Positions 21,892-27,610 of a stretch of 64,000 bases of DNA are shown piece by piece. Source of the stretch: Bacteroidota bacterium (GTDB lineage Bacteria > Bacteroidota > Bacteroidia > Palsa-965); the NCBI GenBank assembly GCA_016194975.1, contig JACQAM010000007.1, positions 124,001-188,000 on the forward strand. Reading direction: 5' to 3'. A program made the position numbers and the translations under genes. The notes under the pieces were generated by a model. That model ran no database searches, was not told the DNA's origin, and was given only the letters and a program-made list of their open reading frames with translations. Positions within the stretch are counted from its first letter, which is position 1, and each line of letters begins with the position of its first letter.

Positions 21892-22251
21892 ATGGCTAAT
21901 CATACTCTTGTGAATTTCCAGGAAGCTAATGGAAAACACTATTTCACTTATGGAACCACTACTCCTGAAAAAGTGGCGCAGTCCTTTTCTGCTTATATGG
22001 CGGCACACGGTTATCGCCTCGAAAAAGGCGATGTCTATCGCGGAACTTATGGAGTGGGCAACCAGGTGATGCGTGTACTCTTTGGTGCATTTGTAAAACG
22101 CTACACCTTCGATTTTGCCTTGCAGCCGAGCGGGGAAAATGTGGTGATCGAATGGTCAAAAGCCGGAAGCGGATGGACCGGAGGGGTGATCGGTATAGCA
22201 AAAACGAATTCTGAATTCACCAAGCATTCGACCAACCTGAGACAGTTGTAA
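21892..22251 (+). CDS. Hypothetical soluble protein, 119 residues
   Basis: No family recognised. It has no signal peptide or membrane helix, and begins MANHTLVNFQEANGKHYFTYGTTTPEKVAQSFSAYM. It has alternating strands and a Gly-rich C-terminal half (GSGWTGGVIGIAKTNSEF). It stands alone between its own promoter and a strong terminator, which supports it as a real gene. Confidence 0.6.
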   Translation: MANHTLVNFQEANGKHYFTYGTTTPEKVAQSFSAYMAAHGYRLEKGDVYRGTYGVGNQVMRVLFGAFVKRYTFDFALQPSGENVVIEWSKAGSGWTGGVIGIAKTNSEFTKHSTNLRQL

Positions 22252-22271
22252 TAAAACACAACCTCGGGAAT

Positions 22272-22319
22272 AAAAAAATCCTCCCTTGCCGGTTCGAACG
22301 ACAAGGGAGGATTTCTTTT
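22272..22319. terminator. Bidirectional intrinsic terminator
   Basis: A 13-bp perfect stem AAATCCTCCCTTG/CAAGGGAGGATTT with a 13-nt loop; T-rich tail on the plus strand and a seven-A run on the other side, so it can end both the upstream plus gene and the convergent minus gene. Confidence 0.9.
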
Positions 22320-22332
22320 CCCCCGGGATGGA

Positions 22333-22863
22333 TCACATCTTTTTCCGGATCTTGATGTGTTTATCTACTGAATCTTTTTTACAGGACGCGCTATCGCCTT
22401 TACAACTTCCACCATTGCAATTCATCATCATCATCCTGCAGCAACAGCAGCAGCAGCCATTCATCATCTGCATTCCGCATCCACCGTCCTTATCCATTTT
22501 ACAATTTCCGTTTCCCCCGCCCTGGCAATCCGGACGGACGGGCATAGGGCAGGAATTCCCTTTCATGCTGCATCCTCCGTTGTCTTTATCGCATGAATTT
22601 CCGCCGTTCATCATCGGGCATCCGTCATCATCATCACCCACAATGATGCGCACTTCTTTGTGAATATTCCCGTTTGAATCGCACGTTTCGGTAACGATCT
22701 GCCGGCAGTGGTCATTATCGCCGCATTTTCCATCTTTCATTTCCATCTGGCAATTATTTTTCCAGCGACAGCATTTTCCATTGCATGGAATGAGCCAGAG
22801 GATAACAATGAATCCAATGAGTGCGATGAATACCGCAGCAGAAGTGATGGCTAATTTTTTCAT
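22333..22863 (-). CDS. Membrane-anchored Cys/Met-rich protein, candidate metal binder
   Basis: 176 residues with one N-terminal membrane helix (AITSAAVFIALIGFIVILWLIP), then a hydrophilic tail with 23 cysteines and about 16 methionines. The tail includes a run of six Cys followed by RMMMM, and repeated motifs of the form GNSCPM, GGCSMKG and GGCGMQMM. Such density of thiol and thioether ligands suggests binding of copper(I) or another soft metal outside the membrane; no known domain is recognised. The DNA here is rich in TGC and ATG triplet repeats, so part of the composition could come from microsatellite expansion. Confidence 0.65.
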   Translation of the reverse strand: MKKLAITSAAVFIALIGFIVILWLIPCNGKCCRWKNNCQMEMKDGKCGDNDHCRQIVTETCDSNGNIHKEVRIIVGDDDDGCPMMNGGNSCDKDNGGCSMKGNSCPMPVRPDCQGGGNGNCKMDKDGGCGMQMMNGCCCCCCRMMMMNCNGGSCKGDSASCKKDSVDKHIKIRKKM

Positions 22864-22898
22864 TTCAATTTATTTTTTGTTACCCGAAGATACTCAAC

Positions 22899-23405
22899 TT
22901 ACCGTTTTCTTTCATAGCGGATGAATGTGTAATCCCAGGCATGTTTTTCATCGGCCTTTTTTTCTTCTCTCCAGGTTTCTTTCCATTGCGAAAAGTCGAG
23001 CGCGGGAATGAACGTGTGCGCATCAGGGAATGTGTGATGCACGCGCGTAAGCCATATCACATCTGTAAGCGGCAGCGCGTGCTTGTAAATTTCTCCTCCG
23101 CCAATGACAAAAAGTTCGGTCTCATGAAGCGTATTTGCTTTTGCAACGGCTTCTTCGAATGAATGAACGACCACAGCGCCGGGTGCAGAATATTTTTCCG
23201 ATCGGGTGACAACGATATTCGTGCGGCCGGGAAGCGGGCGGAAATTACCGGGAATGGATTCATAATTTTTTCTGCCGGTGACCACGCAATGCCCGGTGGT
23301 TTTCTCTTTGAAAAATTTCATGTCGAATGGCAAACGCCAGATAAGACGGTTGTCTTTGCCGATGGCATTGTCTTCAGAAGCGGCTACAATGATTGAGATT
23401 TTCAA
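22899..23405 (-). CDS. folA: Dihydrofolate reductase
   Basis: 168 residues with hallmark motifs: ISIIVAASEDNAIGKDNRLIWRLPFDMKFFKEKT, VVTGRKNYESIP and ELFVIGGGEIYKHALP, ending in DYTFIRYERK. It reduces dihydrofolate made by thymidylate synthase, whose gene is just upstream on the same strand. The start codon is TTG (23405-23403); the family's conserved N-terminus begins exactly there and no in-frame ATG or GTG is close, so a rare start is likely. Confidence 0.95.
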   Translation of the reverse strand: MKISIIVAASEDNAIGKDNRLIWRLPFDMKFFKEKTTGHCVVTGRKNYESIPGNFRPLPGRTNIVVTRSEKYSAPGAVVVHSFEEAVAKANTLHETELFVIGGGEIYKHALPLTDVIWLTRVHHTFPDAHTFIPALDFSQWKETWREEKKADEKHAWDYTFIRYERKR

Positions 23406-23549
23406 AGTGACTTTGATGTGATGAAGAAATTATTTAGCCCTGATGTGGCGCCTGCTCCGTCAGCGCCGCAGCAGGAGCAAAGATTATTTGAAGTGATGCT
23501 GTTGCGCTCCCAGTCCTCGTTAAAACTACGCGGGCATGCAAAATATTTA

Positions 23550-24344
23550 TTACACTGCAACCGCAGCTTTTATATGCGGATGGGGATCGTATCCTTCAAT
23601 GATAAAATCTTCGTATTTGAAATCGAAAATATTTTTCACTGCAGGATTTATTTTCATTTGCGGTAATGAACGAAGATCGCGCGACAGTTGAAGATTGGCC
23701 TGTTCAATGTGATTGGAATACAAATGCGCATCACCCAGCGTGTGCACAAAATCGCCGGGCTGCAGGCCGCACACCTGCGCGATCATGAGCGTGAGCAACG
23801 CGTAGGATGCGATGTTGAATGGAACGCCGAGAAAAATATCTGCGCTGCGCTGGTACAACTGGCAGCTTAATTTTTTATCAGCAACATAGAACTGGAAGAA
23901 CGCATGACATGGCGGCAATTTCATTTTCTCAATTTCACCCACATTCCACGCGCTAACGATCAGTCTTCTGGAGTCAGGATTTTTTCTGATCTGATCGATC
24001 ACATGGGTGACCTGGTCAATATGTTTTCCATCGGAAGTTGGCCACGAACGCCATTGCGAACCATAGACCGGACCGAGATTTCCATTCTCATCCGCCCATT
24101 CGTCCCAGATAGAAACGCCATTGTCTTTTAAATATTTTATGTTCGTTTCTCCTTTGAGGAACCAGAGCAATTCGTGAATGATGGAACGGGTGTGAACTTT
24201 TTTAGTGGTGAGCAGCGGAAATCCTTCTGCGAGATCGAAACGCATCTGGTAACCGAACACGCTTAAAGTTCCGGTGCCCGTTCGGTCTGTTTTTTTTGCG
24301 CCGTGTGCAAGTACGTGGCGCATGAGATCGTGGTATTGTTTCAT
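23550..24344 (-). CDS. thyA: Thymidylate synthase
   Basis: Start chosen at ATG 24344 ([15 protein letters not shown]), giving 264 residues, the exact length of E. coli ThyA. The catalytic Cys lies in [12 protein letters not shown], with [39 protein letters not shown] and GDAHLYSNH. Converts dUMP to dTMP using methylene-tetrahydrofolate. folA lies 144 nt downstream on the same strand; together they form the dTMP cycle. Confidence 0.97.
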
Positions 24345-24359
24345 TGGTAAATTCAGTCG

Positions 24360-24367
24360 CAAAAATA
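24360..24367 (-). promoter_or_regulatory. -7 promoter box of thyA
   Basis: TATTTTTG on the minus strand, followed by C, a perfect TAnnTTTG, ending 15 nt before the thyA ATG. This supports the ATG at 24344 as the start. Confidence 0.6.
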
Positions 24368-24441
24368 CTTCACCCGGAGGAAATCCTCCCGGAATAATTT
24401 CCCATCTTTTACAAAAAATATTAACCGAAAGAGAATTTCCA

Positions 24442-24449
24442 TACTTTAG
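24442..24449 (+). promoter_or_regulatory. Candidate -7 box of the tyrosine leader transcript
   Basis: TACTTTAG differs from TAnnTTTG by one base, as does the box of the gene at 21892. It ends 4 nt before the leader ATG, which predicts a leaderless or nearly leaderless leader mRNA. No -33 TTG at ideal spacing is seen. Confidence 0.4.
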
Positions 24450-24453
24450 CGCC

Positions 24454-24516
24454 ATGAATTTCAACAAACAATACTATTACTACTATCAGGAGTCTTCCCG
24501 GCCGGAGAAGTGGTAA
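24454..24516 (+). CDS. Tyrosine-rich leader peptide of phenylalanine hydroxylase
   Basis: A 20-codon ORF reading [20 protein letters not shown] with five consecutive Tyr codons (TAC TAT TAC TAC TAT, 24472-24486). It ends at a TAA 24 nt before a strong intrinsic terminator and 206 nt before phhA, whose enzyme makes Tyr from Phe. This is the arrangement of ribosome-mediated attenuation: stalling at Tyr codons during Tyr shortage would alter RNA folding downstream. The ORF is too short to be judged by coding statistics. The case rests on the Tyr run, the terminator and the function of the gene behind it. Confidence 0.75.
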
Positions 24517-24530
24517 TGGACATTGTCCAT
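24493..24530 (+). promoter_or_regulatory. Attenuator control region: candidate antiterminator segment and stop-codon hairpin
   Basis: CCGGCCGG (24498-24505), inside the leader ORF just after the Tyr codons, can pair with the terminator's left arm (GCCGG, 24543-24547: 5-6 bp). A ribosome that finishes the leader would cover it; a ribosome stalled on Tyr would leave it free. A second hairpin ATGGAC-ATT-GTCCAT (24516-24530) begins at the stop codon. The antiterminator pairing is short, so this part is a hypothesis. Confidence 0.4.
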
Positions 24531-24540
24531 AAAATAACAC

Positions 24541-24567
24541 AAGCCGGTTCAGTTGAACCGGTTTTTT
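24541..24567 (+). terminator. Intrinsic terminator of the phhA attenuator
   Basis: Stem AAGCCGGTTC/GAACCGGTTT (10 bp, one G-T pair) closed by the tetraloop AGTT and followed by a T run. It lies 24 nt after the leader stop and 155 nt before phhA, so it terminates transcription before the structural gene. Confidence 0.88.
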
Positions 24568-24578
24568 ATTTGGGAAAG

Positions 24579-24694
24579 ATTACAGATAGTACAAATTACC
24601 AAAGCCCTCCCACAGGATTGCTTCTCCCGAATAAATTCGGGATTGCAATGACCAACGCACAATCTGTATATCTGTACTACCTGTAATCTGTATT
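24579..24694. repeat. Word-repeat inverted element (CTGTAATCTGTA type)
   Basis: Left arm 24579-24599 (TTACAGATAGTACAAATTAC) and right arm 24662-24694 (reiterated AATCTGTATATCTGTAC words) are imperfect inverted repeats. Between them lie a CCCGAATAAATTCGGG hairpin and the phrase TGACCAACGCAC, also found at 36189-36200. It occupies the space between the attenuator and phhA. Confidence 0.5.
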
Positions 24695-24722
24695 CTCAGT
24701 AAATATCCGTAATCCTCCCTTT

Positions 24723-25496
24723 ATGAAACAAGAATGGAACAAGTATACGATCGAAGATCACGAAGTATGGAAATTACTTTTTGAGCGGCAGGTAAAAAAT
24801 CTGCAGAACAAAGCATGGAGCGAATACCTGCGCTGCATTCCTCTCGCAGGATTGAAAGCAGATACGGTTCCTGATTTCGGGATCGTTGAACATTATCTCG
24901 CAAAAAAAACAAAATGGGAAATTGAAGTCGTGAAAGGAATTATTCCTGTGCAGGAATTTCTTGAACTGCTCGCGAAGAAAAAATTCTGCTCCTCAACATG
25001 GTTGCGGAAACGTCACCAGCTCGATTACCTCGAGGAACCGGATATGTTTCATGATACCTTCGGCCACCTGCCTTTGCTTGCGAATGAAAAGTATGCGAAG
25101 TTCGTGCAGGATTTTGCCGTGATGGGATTGAAATTCTGCAGCAATGAAAAGGCGGTGATGCTGCTCGAGCGCCTGTATTGGTTCACTATAGAATTCGGAT
25201 TGATGAAGGACAATAGTCAGTTGAGAATTTACGGCGCGGGAATTCTTTCTTCATTCGGCGAAAGCAAACATATTTACAGCGACAAAGTGGAATTAAAAAA
25301 ATTCTCTATCCGTGATGTGTTGCTGCAACCCTTTCACAATAACGAGGTCCAGAATTTATATTTCGTAGTGGAAGACATGAATGATCTGTGGAATTGTATT
25401 CCTGAAACGGAAAAAATGCTGAGTGATTTTGTGAATAGAAAAATTCCGGAAGAACAATTTCACTTCGGAGAACAACTGGGAAGCGCTAATGTATAA
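24723..25496 (+). CDS. phhA: Phenylalanine 4-hydroxylase (biopterin-dependent aromatic amino acid hydroxylase)
   Basis: 257 residues, the size of single-domain bacterial phenylalanine hydroxylases. Iron ligands are His110 and His115 (MFHDTFGHLPLL) and Glu157 (YWFTIEFGL). Converts L-Phe to L-Tyr with O2 and a tetrahydropterin. The Tyr-rich leader and terminator upstream imply that expression rises when charged tRNA-Tyr is scarce, so the enzyme would here serve Tyr synthesis and not only Phe breakdown. No pterin dehydratase or regeneration gene is adjacent. The ATG is directly preceded by the weak purine-poor sequence usual in this genome. Confidence 0.94.
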   Translation: MKQEWNKYTIEDHEVWKLLFERQVKNLQNKAWSEYLRCIPLAGLKADTVPDFGIVEHYLAKKTKWEIEVVKGIIPVQEFLELLAKKKFCSSTWLRKRHQLDYLEEPDMFHDTFGHLPLLANEKYAKFVQDFAVMGLKFCSNEKAVMLLERLYWFTIEFGLMKDNSQLRIYGAGILSSFGESKHIYSDKVELKKFSIRDVLLQPFHNNEVQNLYFVVEDMNDLWNCIPETEKMLSDFVNRKIPEEQFHFGEQLGSANV

Positions 25497-25585
25497 TGAA
25501 TAATGGATAATGAATAGTGGATAATGGATAATATAAGATAGTTTCGTCCGATAAAACTCTATTTGCAATTATGCATTATTCATTA
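25494..25585. repeat. Word-repeat inverted element (AATAATGGATAATG type)
   Basis: Left arm 25494-25533 begins at the phhA stop codon (TAATGAATAATGGATAATG..); right arm 25567-25585 (ATTATGCATTATTCATTA) runs into the stop of the convergent transporter gene. It fills the space between two convergent genes. Confidence 0.6.
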
Positions 25586-26953
25586 GTGTTTGACATCGGC
25601 TACTGCATCCGGATCGTGTTTGTGGCGGAAGAACAGCATGAATAAAATTGCAACGACGAGCGCGTAGAGGGCGAACGTCAACCAGATCGGACTCCATTCT
25701 TTAATCACTACATCATTCCTAAAAGTACCATTTCTTAAAACTTCATTGTGAAACAATAGATTCTTGACAGCAGGATTATTGGCGTCTGTTTTAAGAAATC
25801 TCAAGAGGCTATCAATCGTTGTGAATTTGAGCGTGAAATATTTTGCGATGATCAATCCGCTGGTTACACTGCCGATCACAGCTCCAAAACCATTGGTCAT
25901 CATCATGAAAAGTCCCTGGGCACTCGAACGAATCTTATGATCTGCATTTATTTCGACGAATAGCGAACCGGAAATATTGAAAAAATCAAACGCCATTCCG
26001 TACACAATGCAGGACATGAAGATCATCCATAATCCGCTTCCCGGATCGCCGTAAGCGAATAATCCGAAACGCAGCACCCATGCAAGCATACTGATCACCA
26101 TCACTTTTTTGATACCGAATTTTTTCAGGAAGAATGGAATAGCAAGAATGAACAGTGTTTCAGAAACCTGAGAAATAGACATGATGATGGTTGAATATTT
26201 TTCAACGAACGAATCCGTATACCGGGGAACATTCTTGAAATCAGAAAGGAAAACATCTCCGTACATGTTCGTCAATTGTAAGGCAGCTCCAAGAAGCATC
26301 GAAAAGAGGAAGAACATTGCCATTTTTCTATCGGTGAATAAACGGAACGCATTCAACCCGAACATTTCCAATAATGATTTCTTTCTTTCCGGATTTGTCT
26401 GTGGCGGACAAACTGGAAGTGTGAAAGAATAAATTCCAAGAACGAAAGCCGCGATCGCCGAAATGTAAAATTGATTGGCTGTTGCTTTATTTCCCGAGAG
26501 ATTCGTTGTCCACATGGCCGCGATGAATCCTATTGTTCCCCAAACGCGGATGGGAGGAAAAACTTTTATTACATCGAACGAATTTGATTTGAGAATATGA
26601 TACGCCACTGAATTGGAAAGCGAGATCGTCGGCATATAACAGATCATCGCCGCAAAGATCACCCAGAAAAAATCGTGCGGATCATTGACAAATGGAATAC
26701 AACACATAATTGCTCCGCCAAGAATGTGCAACACGCCATACAATCTTTCCGCATTGATGAAACGGTCGGCAAGAATTCCAATGATCGCCGGCATGAAGAG
26801 AGAAGAAAATCCCAGTGTAGAAAAGATCGCACCGAACGCTTCGGGTTGCCAGTGTTTTGTTCCGAACCAATAATTAGAAATGGTAATGAGCCACGCTCCC
26901 CATACATAAAACTGCAGGAAGCTCATAACAGTAAGGCGGAATTTTATTCCCAT
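25583..26953 (-). CDS. Nucleoside:H+ symporter, MFS (NupG/XapB family)
   Basis: 456 residues with about 12 hydrophobic helices. The N-terminus IKFRLTVMSFLQFYVWGAWLITISNYW and the next helix LGFSSLFMPAIIGILADRFINAERLYGVLHILGG match the nucleoside-H+ symporter family (Nuc_H_symport). Inner-membrane uptake of nucleosides is the likely role; exact substrate unknown. Bacteroidota members are often near nucleoside-salvage genes, but none is adjacent here. Confidence 0.85.
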   Translation of the reverse strand: MGIKFRLTVMSFLQFYVWGAWLITISNYWFGTKHWQPEAFGAIFSTLGFSSLFMPAIIGILADRFINAERLYGVLHILGGAIMCCIPFVNDPHDFFWVIFAAMICYMPTISLSNSVAYHILKSNSFDVIKVFPPIRVWGTIGFIAAMWTTNLSGNKATANQFYISAIAAFVLGIYSFTLPVCPPQTNPERKKSLLEMFGLNAFRLFTDRKMAMFFLFSMLLGAALQLTNMYGDVFLSDFKNVPRYTDSFVEKYSTIIMSISQVSETLFILAIPFFLKKFGIKKVMVISMLAWVLRFGLFAYGDPGSGLWMIFMSCIVYGMAFDFFNISGSLFVEINADHKIRSSAQGLFMMMTNGFGAVIGSVTSGLIIAKYFTLKFTTIDSLLRFLKTDANNPAVKNLLFHNEVLRNGTFRNDVVIKEWSPIWLTFALYALVVAILFMLFFRHKHDPDAVADVKH

Positions 26954-26992
26954 TCAGTCCAGGATAAATTCTGAGAAAAATAAATCAGGAAA

Positions 26993-27610
26993 TTATTTTG
27001 ACTTGCGCTTTTTCAATTCGTCGCGTATGCGTGACGCGCGCTCGTAATTTTCATCTTCGAGCGCTTTGCGCAACATCTCTTCTAATTCTTTAACGGTTTT
27101 CCTTCCGAACTCAGGCCCGCCCGCTGCAGCAGCAACAATCTCCTCACCTTCTTCTTCGCCTGCCTTTTTTTCTTTTTCTTCTTCTGCAGGAGTTTTTTCG
27201 TCTTCAAGAACAATTCCTGCCTGTGAGAGAATGAATTCGTAAGTGTAGATCGGGCAATTAAAACGAACTGCAAGCGCTATTGCATCAGAAGTACGCGCAT
27301 CTACTTCTGTTTCTTCCGTTCCGTTAGAGCAGATAAGTTTTGCAAAAAATATTCCTTCAACAAGATTATAGATGAGCACTTCCTGCACACGAATATGAAA
27401 TGCTTCGGCAAAACTTTTGAAAAGATCATGAGTAAGCGGCCGGCTCGGTGTCATTTTTTCAAGCTCGATCGCGATCGCCTGCGCTTCAAATCCTCCAATG
27501 ATAATTGGCAATCTCCGCTGGCCTTTTGCTTCCCCGAGCACGAGTGCGTATGCGCCTGACTGCGTCTGGCTGTACGACAGGCCGACGATCTCAAGCTTCA
27601 TTTTTTTCAT
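26993..27610 (-). CDS. Bifunctional nuclease family protein (DUF151) with UVR motif
   Basis: Start chosen at 27610 (MKKMKLEIVGLSYSQTQSGAYALVLGE), 205 residues; the longer frame to 27748 adds 46 residues that do not fit the family. The DUF151 core runs to about 135 (RRLPIIIGGFEAQAIAIELE, RPLTHDLF, EVDARTSDAIALAVRF). A Glu/Ala-rich linker with a Lys run follows, then a C-terminal UVR-type helix pair (LEEMLRKALEDENYERASRIRDEL). Plant and bacterial relatives have been reported to have RNase and DNase activity. Confidence 0.88.
   Translation of the reverse strand: MKKMKLEIVGLSYSQTQSGAYALVLGEAKGQRRLPIIIGGFEAQAIAIELEKMTPSRPLTHDLFKSFAEAFHIRVQEVLIYNLVEGIFFAKLICSNGTEETEVDARTSDAIALAVRFNCPIYTYEFILSQAGIVLEDEKTPAEEEKEKKAGEEEGEEIVAAAAGGPEFGRKTVKELEEMLRKALEDENYERASRIRDELKKRKSK

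Follow-up and report, generated by a model that had tools for sequence, protein, structure and literature searches.

The his, trp, phe (pheA, pheST), thr, ilv and leu attenuators of Proteobacteria use a short ORF with a run of codons for the end product of the pathway, followed by a terminator and a competing antiterminator that lies just past the ribosome footprint. Tyrosine is sensed by the tyrosine T-box of tyrS and related genes in Firmicutes, which responds to the charging of Tyr-tRNA and controls a terminator, and which binds the tRNA directly, without a leader ORF. The aroF operon of Corynebacterium glutamicum is preceded by the aroR leader, which has Phe-Tyr-Phe codons; the operon answers phenylalanine limitation and reportedly not tyrosine limitation (PMC11802643). 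For F. psychrophilum, the main text of a transcription start site study describes strong clues for leader-peptide attenuation upstream of amino acid operons (PMC9723704), and the Bacteroid-trp motif RF01692 is listed as cis-regulatory in the main text of another paper (PMC2864571). Neither main text names tyrosine or phenylalanine hydroxylase for such attenuators.

The region studied here lies in a 64,000-nucleotide stretch of DNA from a Bacteroidota genome (the window). It is likewise composed of a short ORF with a codon run, a terminator and a competing antiterminator, and like aroR it stands before an aromatic-pathway gene, phhA. Sequence comparison makes it very probable that transcription of phhA is controlled here by a ribosome-mediated attenuator that responds to tyrosyl-tRNA. 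An earlier note had proposed Tyr-tRNA attenuation of phhA from the letters of the window, and the proposal is supported by conservation at no fewer than 36 loci, by coevolution of antiterminator and terminator, and by the missing tyrA.

Leader, terminator and spacer in the window

The leader ORF occupies 24454–24516 on the plus strand, from the ATG at 24454 to the TAA at 24514–24516, and has 20 codons plus a stop; leaders of this general layout stand at 36 phhA loci. Five consecutive Tyr codons (TAC TAT TAC TAC TAT) are read from the sequence at 24472–24486 on the same strand and are the putative sensing codons. This ORF and its five Tyr codons had been given correctly, base for base, in the earlier note, and the hairpin described there at the leader stop codon is also present: in the window fold, ATGGAC-ATT-GTCCAT forms a small hairpin directly 3′ of the stop, at about 24516–24530 (plus strand). 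It makes the antiterminator loop shorter in the window and was not found as a general feature among the relatives. Runs of the type TAY4 occur at 20 sites in the genome, and the window site alone consists of a short ORF, then a terminator and then a biosynthetic gene.

The intrinsic terminator hairpin (segments 3 and 4), AAGCCGGTTC-AGTT-GAACCGGTTT, lies at 24541–24564 on the plus strand and is followed by TTTATTT, with the U-tract at 24562–24571. Its stem energy is about −13.9 kcal/mol, and the intrinsic terminator that the earlier note had described upstream of phhA is confirmed. No plus-strand gene upstream needs this terminator, because the upstream genes lie on the minus strand. The distance from terminator to phhA has a median of 25 nt in the 36 leader loci and is 158 nt in the window, where the gap is long because a dispersed genomic repeat (24572–24718, plus strand; 44 matches in the same genome) is inserted between them. 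The repeat has inverted ends, GATTACAGATAGTAC...GTACTACCTGTAATC, resembles a MITE or a palindromic intergenic element, and stands outside the mechanism.

Conservation upstream of phhA

The comparison covered 116 loci, almost all of them with a phhA-like gene; some of the relatives are metagenome assemblies. At least 36 Bacteroidota phhA loci, the window included, show in this order a leader ORF containing a Tyr cluster, a terminator and phhA, so that the Tyr run and terminator, for which the earlier note had suggested a search in relatives, are indeed conserved. The 36 leader loci come from several Bacteroidota orders. Their leader ORFs are 17–28 codons long (median 20), most have a TYYYY-like core, and the distance from leader stop to terminator is 20–41 nt in all of them. 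Short upstream ORFs contain YYY at 30 of 84 Bacteroidota-type phhA genes versus 0 of 594 other genes on the same contigs (Fisher p 3e-30, with genes treated as independent; the loci are partly related, which affects exact p-values and leaves the direction unaffected). The corresponding counts for YYYY are 15/84 and 0/594. TAC and TAT are mixed within the Tyr codons in 24 of the 36 leaders, which argues for selection on the amino acid and not on a DNA repeat. Mixed codons, conservation and the controls together rule out chance or a DNA-repeat origin of the Tyr run.

A terminator was detected at 36/36 leader loci versus 12/48 other loci, and three of these 12 have variant Tyr leaders. Across 29 loci the stem shows two-sided changes at 10 of 10 pairs, with 97.2% of cells paired, and none of 500 shuffles did as well. 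At the Cyclobacteriaceae-type loci L101, L111 and L175, phhA has a variant leader, MNPTPRTFVHHSYHHSQ-like, that is rich in His, contains one or two Tyr and precedes a terminator.

About half of the collected phhA relatives have no detectable leader. Leader presence changes state about 12 times across the PhhA tree, compared with 29 in shuffles, and leader-bearing genes are found throughout. This distribution is consistent with an old element that would have been lost repeatedly, with counts that leave the direction of change free.

Pairing of the post-Tyr segment with the terminator

The predicted antiterminator partner of the terminator 5′ arm is segment 2 (CCGGCCGG, 24498–24505, plus strand). 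The earlier note had held that this segment is freed to pair with the left arm of the terminator. Coevolution and the fold with a ribosome at the Tyr codons bear this out, and the exact pairing is corrected: in the window fold, GGCCGG at 24500–24505 pairs with CCGGTT of the terminator arm in 6 bp, two of them G-U, or alternatively CCGGC pairs with GCCGG in 5 bp. At 5–6 bp, the window antiterminator is among the shorter ones.

Post-Tyr segments pair with their own terminator arms with a mean energy of −12.4 kcal/mol versus −9.5 kcal/mol for swapped partners (z −7.3), and 0 of 20000 permutations were as good as the own-arm pairing. Control regions, namely the stretch upstream of the leader, the Tyr run, the stretch just before the terminator and the shuffled post-Tyr segment, gave z from −0.2 to 1.5; with controls near 0, shared base composition is ruled out as the source of the signal. 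When a 14-nt window is slid along the leaders, the signal appears at offsets of 6–18 nt from the last Tyr codon and is strongest at 12, and the coevolving segment is centred about 12–26 nt past that codon. The peak at 12 nt fits a stalled ribosome that covers the first ~9–12 nt with its A site on the last Tyr codon. Matched changes are seen in individual loci: AGGATTAGG with CCTAATCCT in L113, GGAACCGG with CCGGTTCC in L006, GGAGC with GCTCC in L083, GAATCG with CGATTC in L066, and GGCTTCG with CGAAGCC in L115.

To model the ribosome states, we folded the transcript as far as the terminator loop, taking the ribosome to cover the RNA for 12 nt from the first base of the A-site codon; these folds are thermodynamic, not kinetic. 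The antiterminator formed at 36/36 loci with the ribosome at the last Tyr codon and at 6/36 with the ribosome at the stop codon. It also formed at 27/36 loci when the ribosome was left out, which suggests that an untranslated leader might read through instead of terminating. In the window, the antiterminator forms with a ribosome at the Tyr codons and is absent both with a ribosome at the stop and without a ribosome. The ribosome-free window leader is predicted to fold on itself, freeing the terminator arm, as might be expected of an anti-antiterminator (1:2) hairpin just past the sensing codons, but at the 27 loci named above the antiterminator persists in that state. For the window, the co-folding that the earlier note had suggested gives an antiterminator with a ribosome at the Tyr codons and none without. 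According to these models, the antiterminator excludes the terminator and would stay free when a ribosome stalls at the Tyr codons.

Promoter and transcript start

A putative sigma-A −7 box, TACTTTAG (consensus TAnnTTTG), lies at 24442–24449 on the plus strand, a 5/6 match that is not significant alone. A perfect TAnnTTTG is found in the 60 nt that precede the leader ATG at 24 of the 36 loci, with 0.03 expected per 60 nt (binomial against AT-rich background, 3e-28), and in 17 of these 24 the box ends 4–9 nt before the ATG. In the main text of the F. psychrophilum start site mapping, the −7 box stands at −12 to −5 (PMC9723704), which places the predicted start anywhere from about five bases upstream of the leader ATG to the ATG itself. 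The window box has a four-base gap to the ATG; if it occupies −12 to −5, then +1 is the A of the leader ATG at 24454. By this analogy we infer that the leader mRNA of the relatives would be leaderless or nearly so; in F. psychrophilum, 5.5% of the mRNAs examined are leaderless according to the same main text (PMC9723704).

The earlier note had also considered a promoter between terminator and phhA that would bypass the terminator. It finds no support among the relatives: no perfect −7 box occurs in the last 60 nt before phhA at any of the 36 loci, and at most of these loci the stretch from terminator to phhA, with its median of 25 nt, leaves no room for a promoter. A weak bypass promoter could in principle lie within the 158-nt spacer and inserted repeat of the window.

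Tyrosine supply

The gene after the terminator, phhA (24723–25496, plus strand), encodes a phenylalanine 4-hydroxylase of 257 aa with the HDTFGH metal-ligand motif; its match to Biopterin_H PF00351 (E 1.5e-46) agrees with the name that the earlier note had given it. The predicted hydroxylase would make the amino acid that is sensed, in a genome with neither tyrA nor pheA. Prephenate dehydrogenase PF02153 (tyrA) was found in 0/12 genomes from the family, of which seven have a completeness of 90% or more, and in 14/14 control genomes. Prephenate dehydratase PF00800 (pheA) was not found in the window's genome, which is 99.8% complete. The check for tyrA suggested in the earlier note therefore shows by Pfam that the genome is without it, and pheA is missing too. 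As neither gene is recognisable, phhA is the only recognised route to tyrosine, and phenylalanine probably comes from outside. The organism is probably a phenylalanine auxotroph, predicted from its gene content, that makes tyrosine from phenylalanine, and an unrelated enzyme may stand in place of tyrA or pheA. Divergent from phhA, folA-like (dihydrofolate reductase) and thyA-like genes, named from their translations, lie at 22899–24467 on the minus strand; beside the pterin-dependent phhA they form a pterin-related neighbourhood, possibly by coincidence.

Among the relatives, tyrA is present in 5/27 genomes with a leader versus 17/22 without one (Fisher p 5e-5, a raw association); on the tree the link comes down to 3–5 independent pairs, with which a sign test is unable to reach significance. 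These genome counts suggest that leaders tend to occur where tyrA is missing. In some defined media the hydroxylase affects the fitness of Echinicola vietnamensis, and a biosynthetic role has been proposed (PMC7311316), and Echinicola pacifica (L113) has the phhA leader.

Leaders of the same build before other genes

We made a covariance model from 29 leaders, among them the one in the window. It finds the window leader at E 2e-9 for the genome, and the next matches there reach at most 33 bits with E 0.03 or worse. Elsewhere in Bacteroidota, the model picks up similarly built leaders with a terminator, whose codon runs are of His before hisG (L158, L160, L161, L164, L166), Thr/Ile before the aspartokinase gene (thrA-like; L150, L151, L154, L156, L173), Ile before ilvN (L162, L167, L168) and Phe/Tyr before pheA (L159, L163, L171). 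Since the leader amino acid fits the pathway at these other genes, they give separate support to the reading of such elements as attenuators. These matches suggest a phylum-wide set of putative attenuators in Bacteroidota. The model search also found Tyr-run leaders with a terminator before tyrA at L155, L165 and L169. Despite these three, Tyr leaders are rare before tyrA and no general trait of that gene: of 33 tyrA loci, for the most part those with the best scores, none carries one.

Proposed mechanism and alternatives

From these patterns we infer where transcription starts, that it terminates in vivo, that ribosomes stall and that the system responds to tyrosine; these steps would fit together as follows. 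Transcription would start at the leader ATG or a few bases before it. With plentiful Tyr-tRNA, the ribosome would pass the Tyr codons and reach the stop, masking the post-Tyr segment or letting it refold, so that the terminator at 24541–24564 would form and phhA would be off. With scarce Tyr-tRNA, the ribosome would stall on the Tyr run with its footprint ending just before segment 2 (24498–24505). The free segment would then pair with the terminator 5′ arm, RNA polymerase would enter phhA, and tyrosine would be made from phenylalanine.

The leader and terminator might instead make a stand-alone short RNA or peptide with a function of its own, with phhA transcribed from a separate promoter in 24572–24722. 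In favour of this, the window's 158-nt spacer contains three stretches that match the box at 5 of 6 positions, among them TATATCTG at 24667, about 21 nt downstream of a TTG. Matches of this quality often arise by chance (0.38 per 60 nt), however, the spacer is a dispersed repeat, and in the relatives the gap between terminator and phhA has a median of 25 nt, with perfect boxes in the 60 nt before phhA at 0/36 loci. A stand-alone RNA or peptide also leaves the Tyr run and the coevolving antiterminator unexplained, and we regard this arrangement as very improbable. Action through translation or transcript stability, by coupling or reinitiation and not by termination, is just as hard to credit. 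Short ORFs near genes have been proposed to raise translation through reinitiation (PMC4833913), but here at least about 66 nt separate the leader stop codon from the start of phhA at 36/36 loci (206 nt in the window), a strong terminator with its U-tract lies between the two, and the post-Tyr segment pairs with the terminator arm.

A further alternative keeps the attenuator and changes what it senses, which would mainly be a general slow-down of translation or another tRNA of the queuosine-anticodon class (His, Asn). The composition of the leaders (Tyr 20.6%, Asn 10.1%, Thr 8.9%, His 4.1%) and the FVHHSYHHS of the Cyclobacteriaceae variant leader speak for it. Against it, only Tyr forms runs in an appreciable share of loci (30/84), the next being Leu at 5/84 versus 17/594 before other genes; Asn is found mainly at the A-rich leader start, and it is the Tyr run that fixes the antiterminator register. 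Queuosine-codon (Asn/His/Tyr) sensing is disfavoured by these Tyr runs and the Tyr-set register, and we give the whole alternative very little credence. Attenuation of phhA by tyrosyl-tRNA may also be one case of a phylum-wide design in which the leader transcript is essentially leaderless, ribosomes load on a bare 5′ end without a Shine-Dalgarno signal, and the element tends to persist where phhA is the sole source of tyrosine and to be lost where tyrA is present. This wider picture is tentative, and we lean somewhat against it as a whole.

Comparison with known systems

In 22000–27000, no T-box family, whose marks are a specifier loop and a T-box bulge, matched at E up to 1. Rfam covariance models gave just two matches there, both sub-threshold and neither overlapping the leader, and a known Rfam element is ruled out as the identity of the phhA leader. 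In a literature search, which reached few subscription journals, neither a tyrosine attenuator nor a hydroxylase controlled by attenuation turned up. The kind of mechanism, classical ribosome-mediated attenuation, is known; its use to sense tyrosine and to control a hydroxylase is apparently undescribed, without a claim to proven priority. If the proposal is true, tyrosine joins the amino acids sensed by ribosome stalling. A Tyr attenuator before the hydroxylase would mark the Tyr-making enzyme across a large part of Bacteroidota, a signature of its role that can be read from sequence alone. In the window's genome, the leader points to an organism that imports phenylalanine and makes tyrosine only from it. 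The phhA leader could also serve as a test bed for attenuation in a phylum without Shine-Dalgarno signals.

With the tyrosine T-box, the phhA leader shares terminator control and the predicted sensing of Tyr-tRNA, and it differs by its leader ORF. Unlike the attenuators of Proteobacteria, it would sense tyrosine alone, and its target is a hydroxylase acting on phenylalanine, not an enzyme of the chorismate branch. It also belongs to another phylum, and its leader start codon lies only a few bases from the predicted transcript start.
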